A DNA stretch of 64,000 nucleotides from positions 1 to 64,000 of the forward strand of contig JAGOLH010000008.1 of the NCBI GenBank assembly GCA_017994175.1. Direction: 5' to 3'. This DNA is from Bacteroidales bacterium (lineage in GTDB: Bacteria > Bacteroidota > Bacteroidia > Bacteroidales > ML635J-15). The notes under the pieces are model-generated. The model did no database searches and was not told the DNA's origin. It saw only the letters and a program-made list of their open reading frames with translations. The position numbers and the translations under genes are program-made. Shown here piece after piece: positions 6,078 to 35,593 of this stretch; within the stretch, counting starts at the first letter, position 1, and each line of letters starts with the position of its first letter.

Positions 6078-6947
6078 CTATTTCCTAAATAATCTTACCA
6101 CAATACCATAATCAACACTGCTGCCAAAACGACTTTCACCGAGTAATCTGTCGCTGGTTTCGGTAACAAAATCCGGGAAATAATCTGAAACTAATTTATT
6201 GGCATCCTGTTGATTAATTATTTGCGTATACAGGTTAATAATTACAAAACTACGATTGCCTAAAATCTTGCGTATTTCAGCCAACAATGGTTCAAGATGT
6301 TTTTCAAGTTTCCATATTTCACCACCAGGGCCCTTTCCTATTGCCGGCGGATCGAGTATAACGCCTTCGTAGGAATTCCCCCTCTTCTGCTCTTTTGCAA
6401 CAAATCGAAGCACATCATCGGTAATCCATCTGATACCATCAAGATTATTTTCTACCATCATTGTCTTTCCTCGCTGCACCACCTGTTTCAGCGCATCTAC
6501 ATGGGTTACCCTGTGTCCGTTGCCAGCTGCCACAAGACTTGCCACTCCGGTGTAGCCAAAAAGGTTTAAAATTTGAAGTTTCCTTCCGAATAATCCTTCT
6601 AATCCTGCAATAAAATTCCAGTTTATTGCCTGTTCGGGGAACACACCAACATGCTTAAAACTACTTAACTGCAATCTGATTTTTAAAGGTTTTCCGCAAA
6701 CTGAATACATAACCTCCCATGAATCAAACGGCGTATTAAAAAAGCTCCATTTACCACCAGTGCCAATATTATCAAGGTAAATAGCATCCGCTAAGGATTG
6801 CCATTCAGCTTTTGTAAGAAACGGTTTTCCGGTAGCAGACACTTCGGGTCTTATAATTATTTTGTTGCCGAAACGCTCCAATTTTTCTCCATCGCCACAA
6901 TCGATCAATTCATAATCGTTGAATATTTGATTTATGTTAATTTTCAT
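6078..6947 (-). CDS. Class I SAM-dependent methyltransferase, RlmI-like
   Basis: The protein of about 289 residues (from the ATG at 6947) has a Rossmann methyltransferase core with NLFGYTG (128-134) as SAM motif I, an acidic end of strand beta-2 (THVD), and LDPPAIG (198-204), the DPP-type motif of the RlmI/RlmK-like family (Methyltrans_SAM). Such enzymes methylate rRNA bases, usually C5 of cytosine, but the usual N-terminal PUA domain is absent, so the substrate is uncertain. An upstream in-frame start at 6974 is possible; 6947 gives a normal family N-terminus (MKININQIF). The start overlaps the end of the upstream yhbP-like gene by 11 bases, so the two are probably co-transcribed. Confidence 0.8.
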   Translation of the reverse strand: MKININQIFNDYELIDCGDGEKLERFGNKIIIRPEVSATGKPFLTKAEWQSLADAIYLDNIGTGGKWSFFNTPFDSWEVMYSVCGKPLKIRLQLSSFKHVGVFPEQAINWNFIAGLEGLFGRKLQILNLFGYTGVASLVAAGNGHRVTHVDALKQVVQRGKTMMVENNLDGIRWITDDVLRFVAKEQKRGNSYEGVILDPPAIGKGPGGEIWKLEKHLEPLLAEIRKILGNRSFVIINLYTQIINQQDANKLVSDYFPDFVTETSDRLLGESRFGSSVDYGIVVRLFRK

Positions 6948-7365
6948 CTCGTGTCCAATGTATTTTCTTACCAAAACCGAGTCGGTTGTCGGTCATTTTA
7001 ATAGAATCAATGCGTAAAACCCAAAATTCTGAATCCATAAATACAGCAAAAGGGAATCTTTTTAGGTAAATTAGCCTGGCCGTTTCGGCCTCATCAGGCC
7101 TGACAACTTCTCCGATAAATTGAATTCCCCTGATCATGCCAACAATTTTTGTTTCGAGATGAATGGTTCCTGCCACCTGCTTGTTTTTCGTAAATTCATT
7201 CACATGCCTTGTGTGTTGCTCCGAAGTAAAAACAAGGCTTACCCGATTTTGCCAGTAAGCGTAAAAACATGAAGTACACCAAGGTTGCCCTGCAACTGTG
7301 GTCGCAAGCGTAAAGACATGGTGTTTTCCGATAAATTTATGTATTCGTTCTTCAGGAGCTTGCAT
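6937..7365 (-). CDS. YhbP/UPF0306 family protein (pyridoxamine-phosphate-oxidase-like fold)
   Basis: This 142-residue protein matches the YhbP family along its length: a start like HHVFTLAT, then QPWCTSCFYAYW, TEEKTRHA-like TSEQHTRHV, VAGTIHLETK, IRGIQFIGEV, KRFPFA and the C-terminal TDNRLGFGKKIHW. The fold is the FMN-binding split barrel of pyridoxamine-phosphate-oxidase-like proteins, but no reaction is established for YhbP, and flavin binding is inference. It is the first gene of a two-gene unit with the overlapping methyltransferase. Confidence 0.85.
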   Translation of the reverse strand: MQAPEERIHKFIGKHHVFTLATTVAGQPWCTSCFYAYWQNRVSLVFTSEQHTRHVNEFTKNKQVAGTIHLETKIVGMIRGIQFIGEVVRPDEAETARLIYLKRFPFAVFMDSEFWVLRIDSIKMTDNRLGFGKKIHWTRDEN

Positions 7366-12710: not shown

Positions 12711-13466
12711 TTATAAAGTTTTATCTAACAGTTCTTCAATCTTTTTAATTTGAGTTGCAAAATAAATGCTTTTTTCCGGATATTTCAAAGATAATTTTTC
12801 ATATGTGCGCAATGCCTTCTCAAAATAGCCCTGTTTAACATAAATCTGGGCAAGTGTTTCAGATATCAGCTCTTCGTTTTCGCCTCTTTCAATATCAGGA
12901 AGATCAGTATTCAACGCTATTTCGGTTTCCTTCGGAATAATTTTAGGTTTATCTGAAATAAATCTATCGATGAGCAATTTATTTTTTATGCGACTATCTT
13001 TTACATCGGGTTCAGTGGTGTTGCTCTCAAAAACAGTGCTTTGTTCCGCAGGTAACGATGCAGAAAATTTACTTTCCGGAGCGAATTCAATTCGCATAAA
13101 GCCAAAATCGAGCAACCCATCGGAGATTATTATCTGCGAAATATCGGTCTTGTTTGCAGAGTCAATGATGATGTTTTTTTCTATAGAAGAGGTTTTAGCA
13201 AATTGACATCCGTATTTTTCTGATTTTTTTTCGTGAACCTCATGAAGTAATCTGTAAAGCATGGCTCTGTCGGGAGTGTGCAGTGCAGCAGCTTTCACCT
13301 GGCTTCCCAATCTCACATCGTCAATCAGTTGAAGATTTTTTGCGTACAGCAACCATGCCGTTTGAAAATACGGGAACTCCTTCAACAAAGCGTCCATATC
13401 GCTCAGGCTGTTAAAATCCATTAGCGCCGGTTTCTGCAGGTACGATCTGTAAGCTTCTTTATTCAT
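12711..13466 (-). CDS. TPR-like protein of the lptE-secG operon
   Basis: This 251-residue protein has no signal peptide. The N-terminus (SYLQKPALMDFNSLSDMDALLKEFPYFQTAWLLYAKNL) is a pattern I know from uncharacterised Bacteroidota proteins found between lptE and secG. The C-terminus (ELISETLAQIYVKQGYFEKALRTYEKLSLKYPEKSIYFATQIKKIE) is one or two tetratricopeptide repeats. The middle is polar and probably disordered. A protein-binding role related to envelope assembly is inferred only from the neighbours, lptE (3-base gap) and secG (2-base gap). Confidence 0.75.
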   Translation of the reverse strand: MNKEAYRSYLQKPALMDFNSLSDMDALLKEFPYFQTAWLLYAKNLQLIDDVRLGSQVKAAALHTPDRAMLYRLLHEVHEKKSEKYGCQFAKTSSIEKNIIIDSANKTDISQIIISDGLLDFGFMRIEFAPESKFSASLPAEQSTVFESNTTEPDVKDSRIKNKLLIDRFISDKPKIIPKETEIALNTDLPDIERGENEELISETLAQIYVKQGYFEKALRTYEKLSLKYPEKSIYFATQIKKIEELLDKTL

Positions 13467-13469
13467 ACA

Positions 13470-13988
13470 TTACCAGTTTACCACCGCTTTGTTGAAAATA
13501 TCCTCAGTAAGCTGATCCACAATTTCGGTAATCAGTTGCGATTCGACACTTGCCAGGTTCTTTGAGCTTTCAAAATCGGCATACCTCGAAAACTGCGTAT
13601 CGTAGCTTTTAGATGGGTCTTTTGTATTGGTAAATTTCACCCTGACATTAATTGTAAGCCGGTTTAATGCGGCTGTTTCGTTGCCCTGATATGCCTGAGG
13701 TGTTACCCGATAGTCGGCAATTTCACCTTCAATAGTAAGGTCTCCCTGTGAGTTCACTATCGTTAGGCTTGTTTGCGACAGAAATCTGTCCTTTAAAGCC
13801 TCGGTAAGAGTGCTGCTCAACGACGGATTAACATTGGAAGCCCTGTTGGGGAAATAGGAAATCTGTATTGTTTTAACATCGGGCGAAATACTTGCACCTG
13901 TAAACGAGTAACTCCCTTTGCATGAAGCAAAAACTGCAACAATTGCTGCAACCATAATAATTTGAAATATGGGTTGCGTTTGTTTCAT
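13470..13988 (-). CDS. lptE: LptE-like LPS-assembly lipoprotein
   Basis: The 172-residue protein has a lipoprotein signal (hydrophobic stretch, then FASC with the lipidated Cys near residue 23) and the LptE fold pattern: YSFTGASIS, ISYFPNRA, LTEALKDRF, GDLTIEGEI..Y.V.P, then RLTINVRVKFTN. LptE plugs the LptD barrel and helps place LPS in the outer membrane. Its start codon shares one base with the stop codon of the sigma-54 activator gene (TGATG), which suggests translational coupling. Confidence 0.85.
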   Translation of the reverse strand: MKQTQPIFQIIMVAAIVAVFASCKGSYSFTGASISPDVKTIQISYFPNRASNVNPSLSSTLTEALKDRFLSQTSLTIVNSQGDLTIEGEIADYRVTPQAYQGNETAALNRLTINVRVKFTNTKDPSKSYDTQFSRYADFESSKNLASVESQLITEIVDQLTEDIFNKAVVNW

Positions 13989-18438: not shown

Positions 18439-20598
18439 ATGAAAAAATTTGCTTTTTTGCTGGTAAGCCTTGTAATACTGATTTCGGGAACATTACGTGC
18501 CGACGAGGGTATGTGGCTTTTGTCGCTCATCGGGAAAAATTATGACGATATGAAAGCCAAGGGGTTTCAACTCACACCGGATGATATCTATAACATTAAT
18601 AATGCCTGTATTAAAGACGCAATAGTTGGGTTAAGCCGTGAAGGCAGGCCTTTCTGGCATTTTTGCAGTGGCGAAATCATTTCCGACCAGGGGCTGATTC
18701 TTACAAATCACCATTGCGGATACGGTATGATTCAAGCGCATTCATCCATAGAACACGATTATCTGAAAGACGGGTTTTGGGCATATAGCAAAGATCAGGA
18801 ATTACCAAACGAAGGTTATTGTGCCGAAATATTAATTCGTATCGAAGACGTTACAAGCCGTGTAATGAAGAGCGTAACATCGGAGATGGGTGAGGCGGAC
18901 AGGAACGCAGCAATAAAGGAAGCTTCCAGCGAAATTATTAAAGAAGCTGAAAAAGGAACGTACTATAGTGCTCAGGTTTCGGAAATGTTTCATAATAATC
19001 AGTATTTTCTGCTGGTATACGAAATTTACAAAGATATTCGCCTTGTTGGTGCTCCACCGTCATCGATGGGAAAATTTGGCGGAGATACCGATAACTGGAT
19101 GTGGCCAAGGCACACAGCTGACTTTTCGATGTTTCGTATTTATACCGGACCCGATGGAAAACCTGCTGCCTATGCAAAAGAAAACATTCCGCTTAAACCA
19201 AGATATTCCTTGCCTATTAGCATTGCCGGAGTGAAAGAAGGCGATTTTGCAATGATTCTTGGGTTTCCTGGAACAACCGATCGGTACTTAACTTCTTACG
19301 GTCTTCAGGAAACAATTGACATCACTAATACTTACAGGTACAATATACGCACTGTAAAGCTGGACATTCTCCGCAACGAGATGAAAAACAACCCCGAAGT
19401 GCGAATACAGTATGCTTCGAAATATGCCAGCAGTTCGAACTACTGGAAGTACAGCCATGAGCAAAACATTGCCCTGCAGAAACTTAATACTATCGAAAAC
19501 AAAAGGGCGATTGAAAATGAATTTGTAGCTTGGACAAATGCTGATAACAACCGTAAAGCTAAGTACGGGAATGTATTGAACAATATTAAAAACATTTATG
19601 AATCGCGTAAAGCCGATGCTTACAACCGGCAGTTTATTCTCGAAGCACTGTTACAAGGTGCCGAAATACCATTATTTGCATATCAGATAAGCAACCAGAT
19701 TGGTAGGCTAAATGAAAACAGTACTGCAGCCGATAAGGAAAAAATCAAAACCAGTATTCATAACTTTTATAAAAATTTCGATGCCAATACTGATAAAAAA
19801 CTGGTTGCAGCCATGTTCTCATATTATGCTTCCAATGTTGACCCAATGAACTATCCAACTGTTTTTCTTACCATTATTAAAAAGTATAAGGGTAATTTCG
19901 ATAAATTTGCTGCCGATATGTTTTTGAAATCGGTATTTTCCGACGAACAGAAGCTCCTTGCTTTGGTGGATGCTCCCAACGCAAAAATCCTGGATAGGGA
20001 CCCTGCTGTAATTGCAGGGAACTCCATTTATACAAAATATCAGGAAATAAATCAATCGTACCGCGATAAGAGCAGCGGACTCGAAAGAGAAATACGGCTC
20101 TTCAACGAAGGACTCATGGAAATGAACTCCGATAAAATGTTTTACCCTGATGCCAACTCAACCATTAGGCTGACCTATGGTAATGTTCTTGGGTACAGGC
20201 CCGCAGATGCAATTAACTATAAGTACTACACTACCCTTGAAGGTGTAATGCAGAAAGAAGACCCGAATAATGATGAGTTTATTGTTCCCGAAAAACTTAA
20301 AGAACTTTATAAAAACAACGATTTTGGCAGGTATACCAATGCCGAAGGCAAGCTGGTAACCGGTTTTATTACCAACAACGATATCACTGGTGGAAATTCC
20401 GGATCACCTGTTCTCAATGGTAAGGGAGAGCTTATTGGAACAGCTTTCGACGGTAACAGCGAAGCCATGTCGGGAGATATTGATTTTGAAGAAAATCTTC
20501 AGCGATGCATTAATCTTGATGTGCGTTACACATTATTTATTATCGATAAATATGCCAATGCTCAGAATCTTATCAACGAGATGAATATTGTTGAATAA
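18439..20598 (+). CDS. S46 dipeptidyl-peptidase, DPP7-like
   Basis: The complete 719-residue enzyme has a signal peptide (1-20), the His region TNHHCGY (89-95, catalytic His probably H92), the Asp-region block GGDTDNWMWPRHTADF (214-229) and GGNSGSP with the nucleophile Ser at 654. Residue 672, 18 after the Ser, is Gly; the same position is Arg in DPP11, so a DPP7-like preference for hydrophobic P1 residues is inferred. Family members act in the periplasm and release N-terminal dipeptides, feeding peptide catabolism. It is a paralog of the partial gene at 1-1665 and keeps the usual EAMSGD segment that the other lacks. Confidence 0.95.
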   Translation: MKKFAFLLVSLVILISGTLRADEGMWLLSLIGKNYDDMKAKGFQLTPDDIYNINNACIKDAIVGLSREGRPFWHFCSGEIISDQGLILTNHHCGYGMIQAHSSIEHDYLKDGFWAYSKDQELPNEGYCAEILIRIEDVTSRVMKSVTSEMGEADRNAAIKEASSEIIKEAEKGTYYSAQVSEMFHNNQYFLLVYEIYKDIRLVGAPPSSMGKFGGDTDNWMWPRHTADFSMFRIYTGPDGKPAAYAKENIPLKPRYSLPISIAGVKEGDFAMILGFPGTTDRYLTSYGLQETIDITNTYRYNIRTVKLDILRNEMKNNPEVRIQYASKYASSSNYWKYSHEQNIALQKLNTIENKRAIENEFVAWTNADNNRKAKYGNVLNNIKNIYESRKADAYNRQFILEALLQGAEIPLFAYQISNQIGRLNENSTAADKEKIKTSIHNFYKNFDANTDKKLVAAMFSYYASNVDPMNYPTVFLTIIKKYKGNFDKFAADMFLKSVFSDEQKLLALVDAPNAKILDRDPAVIAGNSIYTKYQEINQSYRDKSSGLEREIRLFNEGLMEMNSDKMFYPDANSTIRLTYGNVLGYRPADAINYKYYTTLEGVMQKEDPNNDEFIVPEKLKELYKNNDFGRYTNAEGKLVTGFITNNDITGGNSGSPVLNGKGELIGTAFDGNSEAMSGDIDFEENLQRCINLDVRYTLFIIDKYANAQNLINEMNIVE

Positions 20599-27085: not shown

Positions 27086-28006
27086 TTAAAAATACTTCTG
27101 CCTCTTAAGTAAATATGCCGTAAGCACATCGGAGAAATCGCTGTTAATATCGGCTTCCACAAAATCGATTTGGTATTGGCCGCATTTGAGCTTTAGCTCA
27201 TTAACATACTCCTCAACGTTTTTCACGTAAGTGTCTCTAATTTCGTTGGGGTTGAGTTTAATATTGCCACCTGTTTCCAGGTCAACAAATTTATAAGGTC
27301 GGTTGCTGAACTGGAATTGCTGCTCCAGCTTGTGATCGGTAACATGAAACAGAATCACCTCATGCTTTGCATATCTCAGGTGTTGCAATGCAGGGAACAA
27401 CAACTCGGGGTCGTTGCTTCCAAACATATCCGAAAAAATCACCACCAGCGAACGCTTATGCATTGTTTCGGCAAGCTGATGGAGGCAGGTTGCTGTATTG
27501 GTCGTTTTCTTCATGGGTATATTTTCGCTGTTCATCAGCAACCGTAGTTGGTTGTACATCACCTGAACATGAACCTGCGATAAACGGGGTTCGGAGTGAA
27601 AGATCACCTCATCGCTGAATAGGCTTAAGCCTACCGCGTCGCGTTGTTTTCGCAACAAATAGATGAGTGATGCCGCACAATACACAGAGTACAGCAGTTT
27701 GTTTGCCTCCTTGCTTTTATAAGGAAACAGCATCGACGACGACACATCGATAATGATTTGCCCGCGAAGATTGGTTTCCTCCTCGTAGCGTTTTACAAAT
27801 AGTTTTTCGCTTCGGGCAAAAAGCTTCCAGTCGATATGTTTTGTCGATTCACCGGCATTATACAGCCTGTGCTCTGCAAACTCAACCGAAAAACCATGAA
27901 AGGGACTTTTGTGCAATCCTGTGATAAACCCTTCCACCACCTGCTGTGCAATCAGATCGAGGTTATCGAACTCCCTAATGTGTTCTATGTCGGATAAGTT
28001 TTTCAC
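27086..28006 (-). CDS. DUF58 domain protein with VWA-like fold
   Basis: The 306-residue protein has the DUF58 signature (GFSVEFAEHRLYNAGESTKHIDWKLFARSEKLFVKRYEEETN, about 38-80) followed by a von Willebrand A-like fold with the metal-site motif DVSSS (about 88-92). In many genomes DUF58 proteins work with MoxR AAA+ ATPases in chaperone-like complexes, but no MoxR gene is next to it here. There is no signal peptide, so it is cytoplasmic. It lies 27 bases after the SRPBCC gene and may be the last gene of the pyrE transcript. Confidence 0.85.
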   Translation of the reverse strand: MKNLSDIEHIREFDNLDLIAQQVVEGFITGLHKSPFHGFSVEFAEHRLYNAGESTKHIDWKLFARSEKLFVKRYEEETNLRGQIIIDVSSSMLFPYKSKEANKLLYSVYCAASLIYLLRKQRDAVGLSLFSDEVIFHSEPRLSQVHVQVMYNQLRLLMNSENIPMKKTTNTATCLHQLAETMHKRSLVVIFSDMFGSNDPELLFPALQHLRYAKHEVILFHVTDHKLEQQFQFSNRPYKFVDLETGGNIKLNPNEIRDTYVKNVEEYVNELKLKCGQYQIDFVEADINSDFSDVLTAYLLKRQKYF

Positions 28007-28033
28007 GCGATATTAATAACGGTGCTTACGGGT

Positions 28034-28447
28034 TTATGTTGTCTGATACGAAAGATTGCACAACGCATCAGCCAGTTTATCGAGCATTTGTTTTGCCGGC
28101 TTTTCAAGCATATTACGCATAATTACGTTGAGTTCTGCTTCAATGGTTAGTTTTATTGCTGTGGATGAGCTATCGACAGCCTTGAGCTGAATCCAGAAAA
28201 AAAACTCAAACGGGTTTTCGGCCTTCGAAGTGATCTTGATGGTTTTGAATGGTTCTTTCGCTGCAAAAATCAGAGAAATACGTTGACCTTTGGCTTTAAA
28301 GGAACAACTTTCTGCGTCTGAAGTCCATTCTTCCAGATCGGGTGGAATGAAACTATTGAAATTCCTAAAATCCGATAAAAAATTAAATATTTTTTCATCG
28401 TGTTGCGGAACTTTAACCACCTTGCTTTCTACATGAAACTCTTTCAT
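28034..28447 (-). CDS. SRPBCC (START-like) family protein
   Basis: The 137-residue protein has the START/SRPBCC pattern: an N-terminal strand, then IFNFLSDFRNFNSFIPP, several beta strands with a T/S-rich SSSTAIKLTIEAEL, and a long C-terminal helix (NMLEKPAKQMLDKLADALC). Such folds bind hydrophobic ligands, but the ligand cannot be read from sequence. It lies 12 bases after pyrE on the same strand, a pairing often seen in Bacteroidota, and is probably co-transcribed. Confidence 0.7.
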   Translation of the reverse strand: MKEFHVESKVVKVPQHDEKIFNFLSDFRNFNSFIPPDLEEWTSDAESCSFKAKGQRISLIFAAKEPFKTIKITSKAENPFEFFFWIQLKAVDSSSTAIKLTIEAELNVIMRNMLEKPAKQMLDKLADALCNLSYQTT

Positions 28448-28459
28448 AGTGCATGAAAC

Positions 28460-29092
28460 TTATTTTTTCCACACTGAAGGATTCACCCTCCATTCCTGCA
28501 GTGTTTTCAACTGTTCTGCCTTAATATAGCCGGTTTCAATGGCATGCTCTATCAGCACATCGTAATTGCTCAGGGCAACCAGTTTCACGTTTTCGTTTTC
28601 GAAGCTTGTTTTTGCCACATCGAATCCATACGAAAAAATTGCCACCATGCCAACCACCTCGCAATTTTCGGCTCTCACCGCTTTTACTGCGCCCAGACTG
28701 CTTCCTCCTGTCGATATTAAATCTTCGACAACCAGCACTTTTTTGCCTTTTTCGAGATAGCCCTCTATCAGATTTTCCAATCCGTGATCTTTGGGTTTAG
28801 ACCGTACGTAAACAAATGGTTTTTTCAAGGCATCGGCTACTAAGGCCCCCTGAGCAATAGCTCCGGTTGCTACTCCCGCTACCACATCGAAATCGCCAAA
28901 ATTCATTCCGATGATCTTCACAAAAGAATCTCTGATGAATGTACGAACTTCGGGGAATGATAAAGTTTTGCGGTTGTCGCAATAAATAGGGGAATACCAC
29001 CCCGATGCCCATGTAAAGTGATTTGTAGGGTCAAGTTTTATTGCTTTAATTTGCAATAATTGTTCTGCGATTTGTTTTGCTATGTTTTGCAT
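28460..29092 (-). CDS. pyrE: Orotate phosphoribosyltransferase
   Basis: The 210-residue protein has the PRPP-binding loop VLVVEDLISTGGSS (about 114-127), GVATGAIAQGALVADAL for the pyrophosphate loop region, and YVRSKPKDHG, the flexible catalytic loop. It forms orotidine 5'-monophosphate from orotate and PRPP in pyrimidine synthesis. Its start lies only six bases from the ATG of the divergent Nudix gene, so the two promoters must overlap the opposite coding regions or be leaderless-like. Confidence 0.94.
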   Translation of the reverse strand: MQNIAKQIAEQLLQIKAIKLDPTNHFTWASGWYSPIYCDNRKTLSFPEVRTFIRDSFVKIIGMNFGDFDVVAGVATGAIAQGALVADALKKPFVYVRSKPKDHGLENLIEGYLEKGKKVLVVEDLISTGGSSLGAVKAVRAENCEVVGMVAIFSYGFDVAKTSFENENVKLVALSNYDVLIEHAIETGYIKAEQLKTLQEWRVNPSVWKK

Positions 29093-29098
29093 AATACA

Positions 29099-29722
29099 AT
29101 GGAAAAAATTTATTTCAAAAATCGGTTTATAAGTATCTGTGAATCACCGGTTAACCGCAAAGGGGCCATGAACATCAACTACCAAACCGTTCACGACCTA
29201 AATATAGTTATTTATAAGTTTTTGGCAAACAATCATATTTCGAGCTTGCACATATTCGGGAAAAAACCAAAAAAAATCCTTAAAAAGATAAAAACCGTTT
29301 TTCACTACATAAAAGCTGCAGGAGGCGTAGTAGTAAACAACACGGGCGAAATCCTGCTTATCCGGCGTCGTGGTAAATGGGATCTGCCAAAAGGCAAAAA
29401 AGAAAAAAAAGAAGATATTGAACTTACCGCCATCAGGGAGGTTTGCGAAGAATGTGGACTGAATCCCGAATTATTAAAAATTGAAAACTTCATCGACAAC
29501 GCTTTTCACATCTATGAAGAGGGACCCGATTTCATTTTGAAGCGCACTTCCTGGTTTGTAATGAAATATTCAGGCACCAACGTTCTTATTCCACAGACCG
29601 AAGAGGATATTACAAAGGCAAAATGGGTAAAACCCGAAGAGTTACCGCGTTACCTGAAGAAAACCTTTTTAAACATTACTGTAATTCTTGAAAAATACCT
29701 GAAATCGACTGAGGTTTTATAA
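29099..29722 (+). CDS. Nudix hydrolase
   Basis: From the ATG at 29099 the protein is 207 residues. An N-terminal region of about 75 residues precedes the Nudix domain, which has a perfect Nudix box (G x5 E x7 REVCEECGL, about residues 98-120) preceded by RGKWDLPKGK. The box coordinates the metal that activates water for cleavage of a nucleoside-diphosphate linkage; the substrate is unknown. The ORF extends upstream to 29060 but that would overlap pyrE. The last 67 codons recur at 32148-32354, see that entry. Confidence 0.9.
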   Translation: MEKIYFKNRFISICESPVNRKGAMNINYQTVHDLNIVIYKFLANNHISSLHIFGKKPKKILKKIKTVFHYIKAAGGVVVNNTGEILLIRRRGKWDLPKGKKEKKEDIELTAIREVCEECGLNPELLKIENFIDNAFHIYEEGPDFILKRTSWFVMKYSGTNVLIPQTEEDITKAKWVKPEELPRYLKKTFLNITVILEKYLKSTEVL

Positions 29723-29916
29723 TTTTTTATTTGGTGTAACAATTCGCCCGTACGACATCAGCGTATCAATAAATGAAGTCATAAGTCAAATGAAAAAAGT
29801 CAAATAAAAATTGTAAAAAAAGAACGAAATTCTCTGTAATAGAATACTCAAAGCATTTGACATCAGACATTAGCCATTATCACATCATCAAATTATCATA
29901 TTATCAAATAATCCTA
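29723..29916. other. Gene-free A+T-rich spacer with short repeats
   Basis: No coding sequence is seen. The 3' part (about 29866-29912) is built of irregular repeats of the ATCA/ATTATCA kind, and 29780-29810 contains repeated GTCA/TCAAAT units. The spacer lies just after the Nudix stop, that is, at one edge of the inserted module. Confidence 0.5.
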
Positions 29917-31482
29917 TCACTCCACCGCCACTTTCCCCGTGCACAGCTTCCCTCCAACCCAAACATTCAGGAGATAGACCCCTGCAGGTAGCCCTGCAAC
30001 ATTCAGTTTCACCTGCGAACCGGTTTCCGTTTCCATACATTCCGTTTCCACATCAACCCACTGGCAACCTGTGGCATCAAACAATTCAATTCTCGCAGAG
30101 CTACCCTTTACCGGCAAGCTTACAGTTACCACATCACTTGCCGGGTTCGGGTAAACCGCTGCCTGCATGGCCCGTATCGTTTGCGTGCCATACCCGTTGT
30201 AGCAATCGGGGTTGCAGCCTTCCTCAAGGCAGCCGCATTCGTCCACCTTCACTACCAGGCCTTTTTGTACTCCCGACGGGAACATACTGCACGAGGGGCT
30301 GTAATACTCCCCGCCCATAATAAACCCGCCGTCGGGGGTAGGGGTAATGCTGTAAAACTTCGTATAAGCGCCACTCGTGGTATTGTCGGGGAAACACACA
30401 TAATCGCGGTACCACACTGCCTCGCCCTGCGGGTTTATTTTAAGTATAAATCCGGGTTGCGTGTAATAGGTCGCCTCGCCTACAAGGTATATATTTCCGG
30501 CGGTATCCTGGTAATAATCATTTACAAGAAATTTTTTATTCGGCAGATCATCAATGTAATCATGAATTCTTCGTTTCTGGCTGATCGTCCCGTTGTCGTC
30601 CATCCGGGCAAGCCATATACTGCGGTTTTCTTCATTTATAGCATTGTCTAAGTAAGGGTCGCTCCAGGTAATTAAGTAATCGCCATCCGGCATGATAAAG
30701 GCAAACGGGTGAAAACACAGGGTGTCCTGTGTGGCCGTGGTCCGCCGCCACAACTCGTTGCCCGCGTTGTCTAACCTCACAAACCAGGCTCGTTGCTTAT
30801 CGGGCCATGAAACATAAGGGCCTATCTCGTCCTGGCAACTCACCAGGTAGCCACCGGTTGGCACTTGTAAGGTCTGGTACGGAAACACCCTTCGCCTGTA
30901 GGGGTTCGCCGCCAAAAACGTGTATTGCTTCACCCCCAGCGTGTCTCCCGCCCGGTTCGTAAAAATCAGCATCGGAAAAGAGTTTTGGCTGTTGTATTCA
31001 TAGTCACCGGTTAATACATAACCCGTTGCAGTGGTATCTATTAAATACAATATTCCCTGGCTTGTTCCTGGTATACAATGGTTATACCTGATTATGGTAT
31101 CCATATTCCTGGTATCCAAATTATACCGCATCATTATTGGGCTCAGGGTATAGGCTTTGGAATAATCAATATAGCTACCAACAAATATAATTGTATCCTC
31201 CCTCATTAGATAGGCATTCGACCGGTAAACATTCAATCCTTCAGTTGTATCACTATAGTAATAAAATGAATCCTGTAATACTCCGTTTTCGCCTATAATG
31301 TTAAATTGTGGCAAACTGCCATCGTTAGTAGGGTGCCCAATCAGGCCATAAGTATAATATTGTCCATTTTTAATTACTATCTCATTTATAATCCATCCCT
31401 CATATAGATCATAAAACCTTTCCTGTGCCAACGAAAGCAGTGGCGTCATCAATACCACTGCTATCATGATGTTTCTTTTCAT
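29917..31482 (-). CDS. T9SS cargo protein with C-terminal sorting domain
   Basis: The 521-residue protein has a signal peptide (1-19, ends LAQ). The middle is a series of beta-strand segments with repeated G.YL/G.FI..G motifs (for example GYVLTGDYEY, GYLVSCQDE, GDYLITW, GFIMGGEY), which fits a beta-propeller. A Cys-rich spot (CGCLEEGCNPDC) precedes a type A T9SS sorting domain (about 440-521: VYPNPASDVVTV, then GLPAGVYLLNV.V.GK...GKV). The C-terminal signal targets the protein through the type IX system to the cell surface. Its GC and codon use look higher than those of the neighbours. Ends on the right of the Nudix gene; no start-sharing with the next gene. Confidence 0.88.
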   Translation of the reverse strand: MKRNIMIAVVLMTPLLSLAQERFYDLYEGWIINEIVIKNGQYYTYGLIGHPTNDGSLPQFNIIGENGVLQDSFYYYSDTTEGLNVYRSNAYLMREDTIIFVGSYIDYSKAYTLSPIMMRYNLDTRNMDTIIRYNHCIPGTSQGILYLIDTTATGYVLTGDYEYNSQNSFPMLIFTNRAGDTLGVKQYTFLAANPYRRRVFPYQTLQVPTGGYLVSCQDEIGPYVSWPDKQRAWFVRLDNAGNELWRRTTATQDTLCFHPFAFIMPDGDYLITWSDPYLDNAINEENRSIWLARMDDNGTISQKRRIHDYIDDLPNKKFLVNDYYQDTAGNIYLVGEATYYTQPGFILKINPQGEAVWYRDYVCFPDNTTSGAYTKFYSITPTPDGGFIMGGEYYSPSCSMFPSGVQKGLVVKVDECGCLEEGCNPDCYNGYGTQTIRAMQAAVYPNPASDVVTVSLPVKGSSARIELFDATGCQWVDVETECMETETGSQVKLNVAGLPAGVYLLNVWVGGKLCTGKVAVE

Positions 31483-31489
31483 AATCCTG

Positions 31490-32074
31490 TTATTTAGTTA
31501 CCGCAACCACCTTACTGTCAACAATCTTGCTCTGTGTTTCAATATAAATAATATAAGTTCCCTGGCTAATGTACATAAAAAGGCTATCCGATCTACCACC
31601 ATTTATACAGTCACTGGTCGAACTAAACTCATTAAAACAGTCCATAAGGTGTTGCTCAGAAAGGTCATAATCAAGATGATAATTATTGTTGATATGATTA
31701 AAATACAAGTTTACTACAGCCTCTAATGCACCAATAGGGGCATAAACATAGCATCCGTTGGGACAATATGAATCTGACAAAACCCCTTGGTACTTAACAC
31801 TTGTCATCCATCCATTGCCTTGTTCATAGATTGGAACATATGTTTGCAGAACATTGTCCCATACTAGATGTAAGTCATGATTTCCGTCGAAATAAGGTGA
31901 AGTATTCAGATTTGCTCCATGAGCCTTTCGCCAGTCAAAACTTTTTGCTTTTACCGGAGGCAACGTGTTGATAGTAGTATCTGTATCGACCAATAGATTG
32001 AAATTAATAGTTTGCGCCTGCAAACCCGATACAATCGTTGTTACGAAAACAATAATTAATAAAAACTTTTTCAT
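31490..32074 (-). CDS. Truncated papain-like (C1) protease, possibly a relic
   Basis: The 194-residue protein has a signal peptide (about 1-20) and the N-terminal half of a papain-like fold: FDWRKAHG, VKYQG, then CYVYAPIGALEAV with a Cys at the catalytic position (papain CWAFSAVGALE), LSEQHLMDC and a C.NGG motif. The chain then stops after about 25 more residues, so the His and Asn of the catalytic triad are missing and so is a T9SS sorting domain. The gene may be a decayed or truncated protease. It starts 7 bases upstream of the T9SS cargo gene on the same strand, which may be its downstream partner. Confidence 0.65.
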   Translation of the reverse strand: MKKFLLIIVFVTTIVSGLQAQTINFNLLVDTDTTINTLPPVKAKSFDWRKAHGANLNTSPYFDGNHDLHLVWDNVLQTYVPIYEQGNGWMTSVKYQGVLSDSYCPNGCYVYAPIGALEAVVNLYFNHINNNYHLDYDLSEQHLMDCFNEFSSTSDCINGGRSDSLFMYISQGTYIIYIETQSKIVDSKVVAVTK

Positions 32075-32147
32075 TGGTTTAGACTTGAATTTCTCAAATA
32101 ATTTTACAAGTTACAAATAATTCTTTTTTAATGCCAAATATATTAAA

Positions 32148-32354
32148 GGTCCCAATTTTATTTTAAAACACAGCTTTGGGGTTGCAATGAAATATTCCGG
32201 CACCGAAGTTCTTATTCCCCAGACCGAAGAGGATATTACAAAGGCAAAATGGGTAAAACCCGAAGAGTTATCGCGTTACCTGAAGAAAACTTTTTTAAAC
32301 ATTACTGTAATTCTTGAAAAATACCTGAAATCAACAGGGGTTGATATTGATTAA
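32148..32354 (+). pseudogene. Second copy of the Nudix gene 3' end (truncated duplicate)
   Basis: This segment matches 29522-29722 (last 67 codons of the Nudix gene) in the same orientation and open frame, ending at its own TAA at 32354. From KYSGTE onward it is almost identical, including WVKPEEL and KKTFLNITVILEKYLKST; before that point it is more diverged (GPNFILKHSFGVAM versus GPDFILKRTSWFVM). There is no Nudix box and no start region. It lies on the far side of the T9SS/papain-like module from the intact gene, and it is a likely footprint of duplication or insertion. Confidence 0.88.
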
Positions 32355-32358
32355 AAAA

Positions 32359-33759
32359 CTAATCGTCGTTTATCAGGCTGAAAAAGGCCTTCTCGAAACC
32401 TTCGAGGGGACCCGGGGCCGGTGAATAGATAAGGAAACCCGAAGGACTAACCAAAAAATAGCTGGGATATGCTGCAATTTTGTAATAGCCCGGAATGGTT
32501 TTATCGCCACCGGTAAAAACAAAATCCCATGTATATTTATGGGCATTCAAATAACGTTTGGCTTTGGCAACATCCGAATCAACCACCACCGATACCACCT
32601 TGAAATACTGATTGTGTTTTTCGTAAATGGTTTTCAGCAATTCGAGCTGTTGCTGGCAGGTGTACGAGTCGGTATTGATAAAACTCAAATACACAAATTG
32701 ATTACGGTAATTCGAAAGTTTAACGGTATCGCCCAGCGTATCGGGAAGTGCAAAATGCGGAGCCACCGTGCCCTCTGCCATAGTGAGCACTTTGTCAGCG
32801 ATATTTTGCCCAATAACCCTGTGTTCGGGATATACTGTAACGATGCATAATGAATCCAAACAAAGCAGCAATGGGGTCCATGCATAATTATCATTATAAA
32901 AAGCATCGTGTATCCCTTTCAGAATTGCCAGCTCCTTAAGCCGGGGGTTCTGCAGTTCAAGCCAGTACGAAAGCAGGAATTTAATGTTGGTTATGCTGTG
33001 CCCGTAGTTTACTTCCCAGAACAGCCTCGGACCAATTAACTCATTCAGTTGGTTGTCGAAAAAATTGTTGTATAGCTCTCCGAAAATCTCCATATATGCC
33101 GGATTTTCGTAATATACACTATCGAAAGTGAGGTTTTTAAATGCCACTTCCGGTCTGTTGCGTTGATATGCCAGATAGCGCAACCCAACATATTTGAATT
33201 TTTTATACGCATTAAAATACGGATTGCCCTTATAGGAAAAATGCGAGTCGATTTCATTAATGAACGTATCAACATCCGACTCCATGCCTTTTACATAAAT
33301 TTCAAACATCGATTCATCGACATATTCATCGTAGAAATAATCGAAGTCCATAATGAGGTAATTCAAATCGGTTTTTTTCATGTTTTTTATTCCGATATGC
33401 ACCGATTCGGGTTCGAAAAAGGGGTTTAACTCATCTGCCTTGGTTTTTTCGATATATTCAGGGAGTATAATATCGTAATTGCAACCAGGTTCCATATAAA
33501 AATATGCAAAATAAATCCCTGTTTCGGCAAAAACCATACAGGTTTTATCGAGTTCACATTGCCCTGAGAAATACCCCTTGCTGTCGACGGTAACTGTAAA
33601 TAGGTCTTGTTCCAGCATGGTGATGCGGTCGTAGAATTTTTGAAATACAATTTTTTTTCCGGCATAGGCAGGAGCCGTACCCTCAACCTTGCAAATACCG
33701 GCATACAGATTTGTTGTAAAAACAGAAAAGAATAGTAAAAAGGCAATATTTCTCATCAT
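32359..33759 (-). CDS. Secreted thioredoxin-fold protein lacking a CxxC motif
   Basis: From the ATG at 33759 (a second ATG follows at 33756; the open frame extends to 33867 without a signal-like start) the protein is about 466 residues. It has a signal peptide, an N-terminal DUF4369-like beta domain, a long helical middle, and a C-terminal thioredoxin-like domain (about 335-466: AEGTVAPHFALPDTLGD, LSNYRNQFVYLSFINTDSYTCQQQL, PSYFLVSPSG). The usual CxxC of TlpA/ResA is replaced by a single Cys (SYTC), so redox activity by the normal mechanism is unlikely. A periplasmic or lipid-associated role is inferred. Confidence 0.72.
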   Translation of the reverse strand: MMRNIAFLLFFSVFTTNLYAGICKVEGTAPAYAGKKIVFQKFYDRITMLEQDLFTVTVDSKGYFSGQCELDKTCMVFAETGIYFAYFYMEPGCNYDIILPEYIEKTKADELNPFFEPESVHIGIKNMKKTDLNYLIMDFDYFYDEYVDESMFEIYVKGMESDVDTFINEIDSHFSYKGNPYFNAYKKFKYVGLRYLAYQRNRPEVAFKNLTFDSVYYENPAYMEIFGELYNNFFDNQLNELIGPRLFWEVNYGHSITNIKFLLSYWLELQNPRLKELAILKGIHDAFYNDNYAWTPLLLCLDSLCIVTVYPEHRVIGQNIADKVLTMAEGTVAPHFALPDTLGDTVKLSNYRNQFVYLSFINTDSYTCQQQLELLKTIYEKHNQYFKVVSVVVDSDVAKAKRYLNAHKYTWDFVFTGGDKTIPGYYKIAAYPSYFLVSPSGFLIYSPAPGPLEGFEKAFFSLINDD

Positions 33760-33898
33760 ACTCAGAACCAATTGCACAAAATGAATAAATAGTTTTGCGT
33801 AAATATACTTTATTAACAACCTGATTTTATGTTTTATTGTAAAAAATCCGAAATTCATCCATAACAATTAATCATATCATTTTTTTATGCTTTCTTCG

Positions 33899-33906
33899 TA
33901 TGTTTG
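33899..33906 (+). promoter_or_regulatory. Putative -7 element for the Ig-like lipoprotein operon
   Basis: TATGTTTG matches TAnnTTTG and ends 16 bases before the TTG start at 33923. No -33 TTTG is seen at the right distance. Confidence 0.35.
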
Positions 33907-33922
33907 TACCAAATTTTAGTAA

Positions 33923-35593
33923 TTGAAAGTCATACGTAATATAATTCTTACTGCCGTCGCCTTTGTGTCTATCATATCCTGTGCCAAAATGGGCGCGCTG
34001 AGCGGCGGACCCGAAGACAAAGAGCCTCCGGTTGCAGTATTTGCCGATCCACCGAATGCTTCGGTAAATTTTGCAGCAACACAGGTTAAAATCAGGTTCA
34101 ACGAGTATATTATTTTAAAAAATGTACAGCAGGCATTAATTATTTCACCCCCCATCGACCCCAAACCTGAAGTATTGGTTTCGGGGAAAAACCTGATAAT
34201 CAATATTGAACCCGGAGCATTGCGGGAGAACACAACCTATAATCTTAACTTTGGTGATGCGGTTGCCGATAATAACGAAGGAAATCCCCTGAAAGGTTTT
34301 ACCTATTCTTTCAGCACAGGTAATCTGATTGATTCATTAATGGTGTCGGGAACACTGGTTGATGCGTTGACGTTGAAACCGATTGAAGGTGCTTCCGTTG
34401 TACTTTACAAAGAAGGGAACGACAGTCTATTTTTCACCACCATTCCCCAGTATCTCTCGGTTACCGATGCGAACGGAAAATTCTCGCTTCAATATCTTGC
34501 CGAAGCAAACTACCTGATTTATGCCATAAGCGATGCCAACTACAATTATTATTTCGATCAGCCATCGGAACCCATTGCTTTCACCGATGCAATAATTTAT
34601 CCCACAGTATCGCTTGCAACTGTTCCCGGCGACACGGCAAAGCAGCAGCCGGTATATGCTCCGGCAAATGTATTGCTAAAGATGTTTACCGAAGATTATC
34701 AGAAGCAATACATTAAATCGGCAGAAAGAAAAGAACCCGGTAAGGTTCAGATCATTTTCAATATGCCAAACCGTACGATACCCGAAATTTCTTTGCCCGA
34801 TGACGTGGAATTCCTGATTTCTACTTCGGCAACTAACGATACACTTACCCTATGGTTAACCTATGAAAACATGTCCCTGCATGATAGCCTGAATATATAT
34901 TGCTCCTACTACGATAAAACCACCGATGGAGTTCTTGTTTACGATACAATACGCATTACCAAGCCCTTGAAAAATGAAAATTCATTGCTACAGTTTTCCG
35001 GATCCAGGCATAAGGAGCTGTATTCCGATTATCTGTTGAACTTTTCGCATCCGATAGTTTCGTTCGATTCCTCAAAAATAGTATTACAGAACGTAGAATC
35101 ACCTGAAAAACGAATTGACTTTACAATAGCATCAGCCATTAAACCGGAGCAAATGCTGTTAAAAGCAAACCTTGCCGAAGGAGAAGAATATGTGCTGCAT
35201 TGTGACGAAGGAGCATTCTCCGATTGTTATGGTGGCAGCACGAAATCCGATTCAATTCGTTTCACCGTAAAAACCGAAGCCGATTATGGCAGCCTGATCA
35301 TTAGTATTCCCACCGCCCCTGAAACATGCTTTGCTGAATTGCTGGTTCAAAACAAAGTAAAATATTCTGTGCGTATTGCCGACAACAGGCTGGCTTTCAT
35401 GAACATTTCTCCCGGGAAATACACCATCAGAATTATTACGGACAGTAATTCAAACGGAGTCTGGGATACCGGCAATCTGCTACTGAACCGGCAGCCAGAA
35501 GCTGTGTATTACTACAACAGCGAATATGAGGTGCGAAGCAAGTGGCAACATGAACTGGAATGGCAGCAGAAATTTAACGAACAGGGGCAATGA
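33923..35593 (+). CDS. Ig-like domain lipoprotein
   Basis: The 556-residue protein starts at TTG 33923 (no ATG nearby gives a signal peptide). The lipoprotein signal ends in SIISC with Cys at about residue 20. Next is an SbsA-type Ig-like domain (about 34-130: EPPVAVFADPPNASVNF, VKIRFNEYI, NTTYNLNFGDAVADNNEGNPL), then a carboxypeptidase-regulatory-like segment (VSGTLVDALTLKPIEGASVVLYKE, about 140-210), and further beta-rich regions. It is probably anchored in the outer or inner membrane facing the periplasm. The stop overlaps the next gene by four bases. Neighbours suggest an envelope or glycan role, but no function is known. Confidence 0.8.
   Translation: MKVIRNIILTAVAFVSIISCAKMGALSGGPEDKEPPVAVFADPPNASVNFAATQVKIRFNEYIILKNVQQALIISPPIDPKPEVLVSGKNLIINIEPGALRENTTYNLNFGDAVADNNEGNPLKGFTYSFSTGNLIDSLMVSGTLVDALTLKPIEGASVVLYKEGNDSLFFTTIPQYLSVTDANGKFSLQYLAEANYLIYAISDANYNYYFDQPSEPIAFTDAIIYPTVSLATVPGDTAKQQPVYAPANVLLKMFTEDYQKQYIKSAERKEPGKVQIIFNMPNRTIPEISLPDDVEFLISTSATNDTLTLWLTYENMSLHDSLNIYCSYYDKTTDGVLVYDTIRITKPLKNENSLLQFSGSRHKELYSDYLLNFSHPIVSFDSSKIVLQNVESPEKRIDFTIASAIKPEQMLLKANLAEGEEYVLHCDEGAFSDCYGGSTKSDSIRFTVKTEADYGSLIISIPTAPETCFAELLVQNKVKYSVRIADNRLAFMNISPGKYTIRIITDSNSNGVWDTGNLLLNRQPEAVYYYNSEYEVRSKWQHELEWQQKFNEQGQ

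Follow-up and report, generated by a model that had tools for sequence, protein, structure and literature searches.

A T9SS cargo gene pair inserted at the pyrE–Nudix–TlpA site of a Bacteroidales genome, between two copies of the Nudix gene end

Results

Two genes for secreted-type proteins, located in a draft genome of a Bacteroidales bacterium (GCA_017994175.1), are newcomers at an ancestral pyrE–Nudix–TlpA site. They lie in the window, the whole 64,000-nucleotide stretch analysed here (positions 1 to 64,000 of contig JAGOLH010000008.1), on the minus strand between two same-orientation copies of the 3' part of the Nudix gene. The features of the locus are as follows.

28460–29092, minus strand: pyrE (phosphoribosyltransferase; Pfam Pribosyltran), conserved left neighbour of the Nudix gene and found beside it in nearly all family loci
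29099–29722, plus strand: Nudix gene, the intact left copy, ending ...STEVL-stop (Pfam NUDIX, E = 1.3e-18; Nudix box by eye)
29522–29716, plus strand: left copy of the repeat, the 3' part of the Nudix gene (repeat search and base-by-base alignment)
29723–29916: noncoding left flank of the inserted pair, with no similarity to the Nudix–TlpA junction
29917–31482, minus strand: gene B, a 521-aa T9SS cargo protein (Por_Secre_tail; relatives in the family)
31490–32074, minus strand: gene A, a 194-aa, internally shortened papain-like secreted protein (Peptidase_C1 positions 14–80 of 220; longer homologues)
32002–32078, minus strand: gene A signal-peptide segment, 76 of 77 bp identical to contig C51
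32148–32342, plus strand: right copy of the repeat, an orphan Nudix 3' tip whose frame stays open to a stop at 32354 (...STGVDID-stop)
32359–33867, minus strand: TlpA/AhpC-TSA-type gene, ancestral tail-to-tail neighbour of the Nudix gene (domain match and synteny)

The empty site in relatives

The gene order pyrE(–), Nudix(+), TlpA(–) recurs across the family and in the wider Bacteroidota. In 15 genomes, the distance from the Nudix stop to the TlpA stop is –23 to +55 bp, with a single Nudix gene and neither the pair nor a second tail (loci L224, L249, L250 and L010 within the family; L035, L041, L051, L053, L062, L070, L073, L089, L093, L106 and L107 outside it; L225 and L096 were left out of the count). 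Adjacency of Nudix and TlpA is not universal, as TlpA was not found in the downstream stretch inspected in many other family members; it is nevertheless likely to be ancestral, since it occurs both within the family and outside it. The empty site is read here from synteny rather than from a sister strain, the best Nudix relative being 44% identical. These loci agree with the preliminary description, which proposed that the pair had entered the site and suggested looking for an empty one in related genomes. The opposite situation, with two ancestral Nudix genes and T9SS genes always present, was looked for among the relatives and not found; none of the genomes examined has two Nudix genes at this locus. 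Genome G001 and Marinifilum flexuosum carry other genes between Nudix and TlpA, and were rejected as parallel cases because these genes are unrelated and come without a copy of the tail.

Synteny also tells which of the two tails is old. The stop codon of the right tail ends at 32354 and that of TlpA begins at 32359, 4 bp apart, which puts the ancestral junction at the right tail; the left gene, which is intact, now lies 2.6 kb from its former neighbour. The right tail had been taken for a stray second copy; it is instead the left gene that has been re-ended.

Extent and divergence of the repeat

A repeat search of positions 28000–34000 returned a single long direct repeat, 29522–29716 and 32148–32342 (195 bp, 89% identical), confirming that the two tails are homologous and in the same orientation. 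The limits given for them previously (29722 and 32354) run slightly long, as they add two unrelated stop regions. Similarity stops just before both frame ends, and none was found past the last coding bases of the two tails. A search of the draft genome (3.17 Mb, 129 contigs) with the Nudix DNA gave two matches, both of them these tails. Elsewhere in the window, a 122-bp direct repeat with 77% identity occurs at positions 76–194 and 19045–19163, 19 kb apart.

Aligned base by base, the tails differ at 22 of 195 positions, with the mismatches concentrated towards the 5' side (permutation p = 0.00075): the first 39 bp hold 13 of them and the other 156 bp hold 9. This longer part is 94% identical and shows no unusual clustering of its own. 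The longest identical run is 51 bp. The upstream drop in similarity reported earlier is thus real, but 'near-perfect' overstates a 3' end that reaches 94% at best. Upstream of 32148, further similarity of the right tail is not significant (p = 0.13).

Outside six scrambled codons (29543–29560), 9 of the 14 differences are synonymous (p = 0.002 against a random 25%), suggesting from the pattern of substitutions that selection may have acted during part of the tails' divergence. The excess is weak when all 22 differences are counted (p = 0.07), and some is expected under any model because the left copy still works as a gene. A Nudix box is missing from the right piece, as is the LKxTxWF-type motif (the sequence there reads LKHSFGVAM), which the left copy and the relatives keep in an alignment of about a hundred relatives. 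The right piece is a remnant, and the right junction (32120–32190) is eroded. Partial conversion between the two tails, which the preliminary description also raised, may have taken place.

The inserted gene pair

The T9SS cargo gene and truncated papain-like gene previously placed between the tails were both matched by Pfam. Gene B carries a C-terminal Por_Secre_tail domain (E = 6.7e-11). Gene A lies upstream of gene B at a distance of 7 bp. By eye it has a signal peptide, and this is followed by the initial portion of a papain domain (model positions 14–80 of 220); no Por_Secre_tail match was found for it in Pfam or NCBIfam, and only its last residues resemble, by eye, the terminal strands of a sorting domain. 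Papain-type (C1 family) proteases need the His/Asn half of the domain to work. With the match ending at position 80 of 220, gene A does not encode a full domain with the catalytic residues Cys, His and Asn, and because the His/Asn half is missing the product cannot be a working papain-type protease. Its homologues in the order are open frames of about 350 to 1600 aa.

Of 12 relatives of gene B in the family, 9 have directly upstream, on the same strand, a gene that ends in an apparent sorting domain, assigned by eye in the short ones; one of these nine upstream genes is itself a gene B. Four upstream partners are large (1327 to 1556 aa), and Pfam recognized their sorting domain, that of L219 falling just below the cut-off; short partners have 153 aa (L213), 127 aa (L222) and 194 aa (the window). 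Given this pairing among gene B relatives in the family, the insert is best described as a worn member of a recurring two-gene arrangement. Outside the family, gene B was seldom found among the three candidates scored per genome in an order-wide search, which is too few to establish that it is nearly absent there.

The GC content of gene B (29917–31482) is 36% in its first 162 codons and 52% in the rest, with the switch near 31000, where the match to contig C81 (see below) also starts. Relatives have GC contents of 29–33% and 38–39%, and the C-terminal part is unusually GC-rich in the window. In genome G029, the end of gene B recurs at 100% over 127 bp (L213:4790–4916 and 6906–7032, contig C110); the recurrence lies at the very end of the contig, upstream of a short gene A, and may represent a tandem gene pair or an assembly overlap.

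A second copy in the same genome

Further gene B sequence is found on contigs C51 and C81, of which the former ends and the latter begins inside the gene. On C51 the order is an ABC-F gene, a gene A cut in frame and reduced to its signal peptide and last residues, and then the start of gene B. The signal-peptide segment of gene A is identical to that of the window at 76 of 77 bp, and the adjoining gene A/gene B start at about 80% (L127:7458–7584); this step in identity suggests that the segment was recently exchanged or converted. C81 carries the last 358 codons of gene B (82% DNA identity), followed by the 3' end of groEL. The two ends probably belong to one copy of the pair. Synteny gave no support for joining them, the ABC-F gene not being within 1.5 kb of groEL in relatives. 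Taking the two ends as one copy, the flanks share nothing, and there is no duplicated gene end. The GroEL protein on C81 has 577 aa (L128:1192–2925), compared with about 545–563 aa for others in the family; matches to the family proteins break at about residues 138–173, and an extra segment of about 30 residues seems to be present.

Duplicated gene ends at other copies of the pair

It had been proposed that such a duplication is the general way in which the module enters a site, and a search for the module beside other duplicated gene ends was suggested. None was found at C51/C81, the probable other copy in this genome having unrelated flanks. The pair of the nearest relative (L210, genome G004) is flanked by 616-bp direct repeats with 91% identity (L210:6058–6672 and 12940–13554). 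This sequence has five copies in that genome, with 74–100% identity to the query, and was rejected as a second case since it is a dispersed repeat; because of this, no gene-end-duplicating element is claimed. The dispersed repeat is about 450–616 bp long, and several copies lie upstream of secreted-type genes. In genome G016, an intergenic 212-bp repeat in the same orientation (L216:5544–5752 and 13006–13215, 86%) encloses lepA and other genes, and was not accepted as specific to the pair.

Between the Nudix repeats, there is no integrase or transposase gene, only the two T9SS-type genes. Neither of the marks of a transposon or integrative element, namely a recombinase between the repeats and the same duplication at other copies, was found. 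Searches of plasmid and phage sequences returned nothing useful.

Discussion

The locus bears the scar of a gene gain, clear yet fairly commonplace, and does not represent a novel type of mobile element. Truncation affects opposite ends of the two Nudix pieces, which have 195 bp in common: the left copy is complete upstream and re-ended downstream, and the right copy is cut off upstream and still joined to TlpA. This arrangement is expected if an insert is joined on one side to the end of a gene and on the other to a point farther upstream in that gene.

Our preferred reading, held tentatively, is a one-off insertion that was anchored by homology in the Nudix gene and stranded its old 3' tip; it is favoured by the empty site, the opposite truncation, the loss of the motif from the right tail and the lack of an integrase or transposase gene. 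We infer the donor, the anchor and the order of events as follows. The incoming DNA would have comprised the gene pair, preceded by a 3' part of a Nudix gene. On the left, it would have been anchored by homology in the resident Nudix gene, which the incoming Nudix copy would have re-ended; on the right, an illegitimate join would have formed within the resident gene, some 200 bp short of its end. The original 3' tip would have been stranded on the far side of the insert, to decay from the end at which it was broken. Homology-facilitated illegitimate recombination (HFIR) and the displacement of Rhs and T6SS tips are pictured in the same manner. To obtain a duplication, recombination with a sister chromosome would be required as well, and the donor must already have carried the pair beside a Nudix gene. 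Tails that are partly two alleles would be expected to show such uneven mismatches and the 9 of 14 synonymous differences. Against this reading stand the best Nudix relative, at 44% identity, the weakness of the synonymous excess over all 22 differences, and the rarity of HFIR, whose usual outcome is a deletion and not a duplication.

An accident of local copying explains the locus almost as well, if with somewhat lower probability: in the course of replication or repair, synthesis would have reached the end of the Nudix gene, moved over to a resident copy of the pair, and returned about 200 bp upstream in the Nudix gene. The repeat would then arise in one step without foreign Nudix DNA, the genome does hold another copy of the pair, and the opposite truncation with its 195-bp overlap fits equally well. 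However, that copy is about 80% identical to the insert, compared with 94% between the tails in their better part, and so was not the direct template of so recent an event; a single event also predicts even divergence along the tails, rather than the uneven divergence observed. Even divergence would likewise be expected from single-crossover (Campbell-type) integration of a circular molecule carrying a Nudix tail and the gene pair, and its product should keep homology over the whole carried fragment. Such crossovers are known (PMC3240628) and do give direct repeats around an insert, but the pair is carried by no plasmid record (one weak match, at 23%), and we consider this route improbable.

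Tandem duplication of the whole Nudix gene, with later insertion of the pair into the second copy and loss of its 5' part, is unlikely, though less so than Campbell-type integration. An orphan tip at the ancestral junction with a decaying 5' side is what it would leave, yet it requires more steps, and no relative examined has two Nudix genes here. Least probable of all, and very unlikely, is an assembly artefact merging two strains' versions of the locus. The assembly is a 129-contig draft in which C51 and C81 end inside related genes; nonetheless, the longest exact match between the tails is only 51 bp, and the right junction is degraded and its conserved motif lost, rather than there being a clean switch within identical sequence.

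The locus is a well-preserved footprint of how secreted-protein genes were gained without breaking the gene in which they landed; should the event be unique, it amounts to no more than a local scar. The family-level pairing of T9SS cargo genes, with an upstream member often much shorter than its relatives, offers a possible entry to the turnover of T9SS repertoires. As a speculation to which we give little credence, such pairs (a variable large A and a constant B) might be swapped as cassettes through homology-anchored displacement at the ends of genes, with orphan tips left behind. If true, cassette exchange would diversify T9SS surface repertoires somewhat as happens with Rhs and T6SS tips.

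Comparison with known systems

HFIR is known from competent bacteria and from E. coli conjugation (PMC3240628). Its inserts are anchored by homology on one side and joined without homology on the other, a pattern that the flanks of the present locus would fit given a suitable donor, and as here no integrase is involved; it differs in that the usual outcome is deletion or replacement, whereas here the Nudix gene end is duplicated and the donor is presumed. Partial duplications generated by transformation in Streptococcus pneumoniae (PMC3784515) are alike in that recombination with a sister chromosome gives duplication, not replacement, but they are tandem, span about 100–900 kb and form between existing repeats. 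In T6SS effector/immunity arrays and Rhs loci (PMC5361080), as here, a gene acquires a new 3' end and its old 3' piece is orphaned downstream of the insert. There, the disrupted gene is the effector itself, whereas in the present locus the gene affected is a housekeeping Nudix gene, which stays functional and has no relation to the genes inserted.
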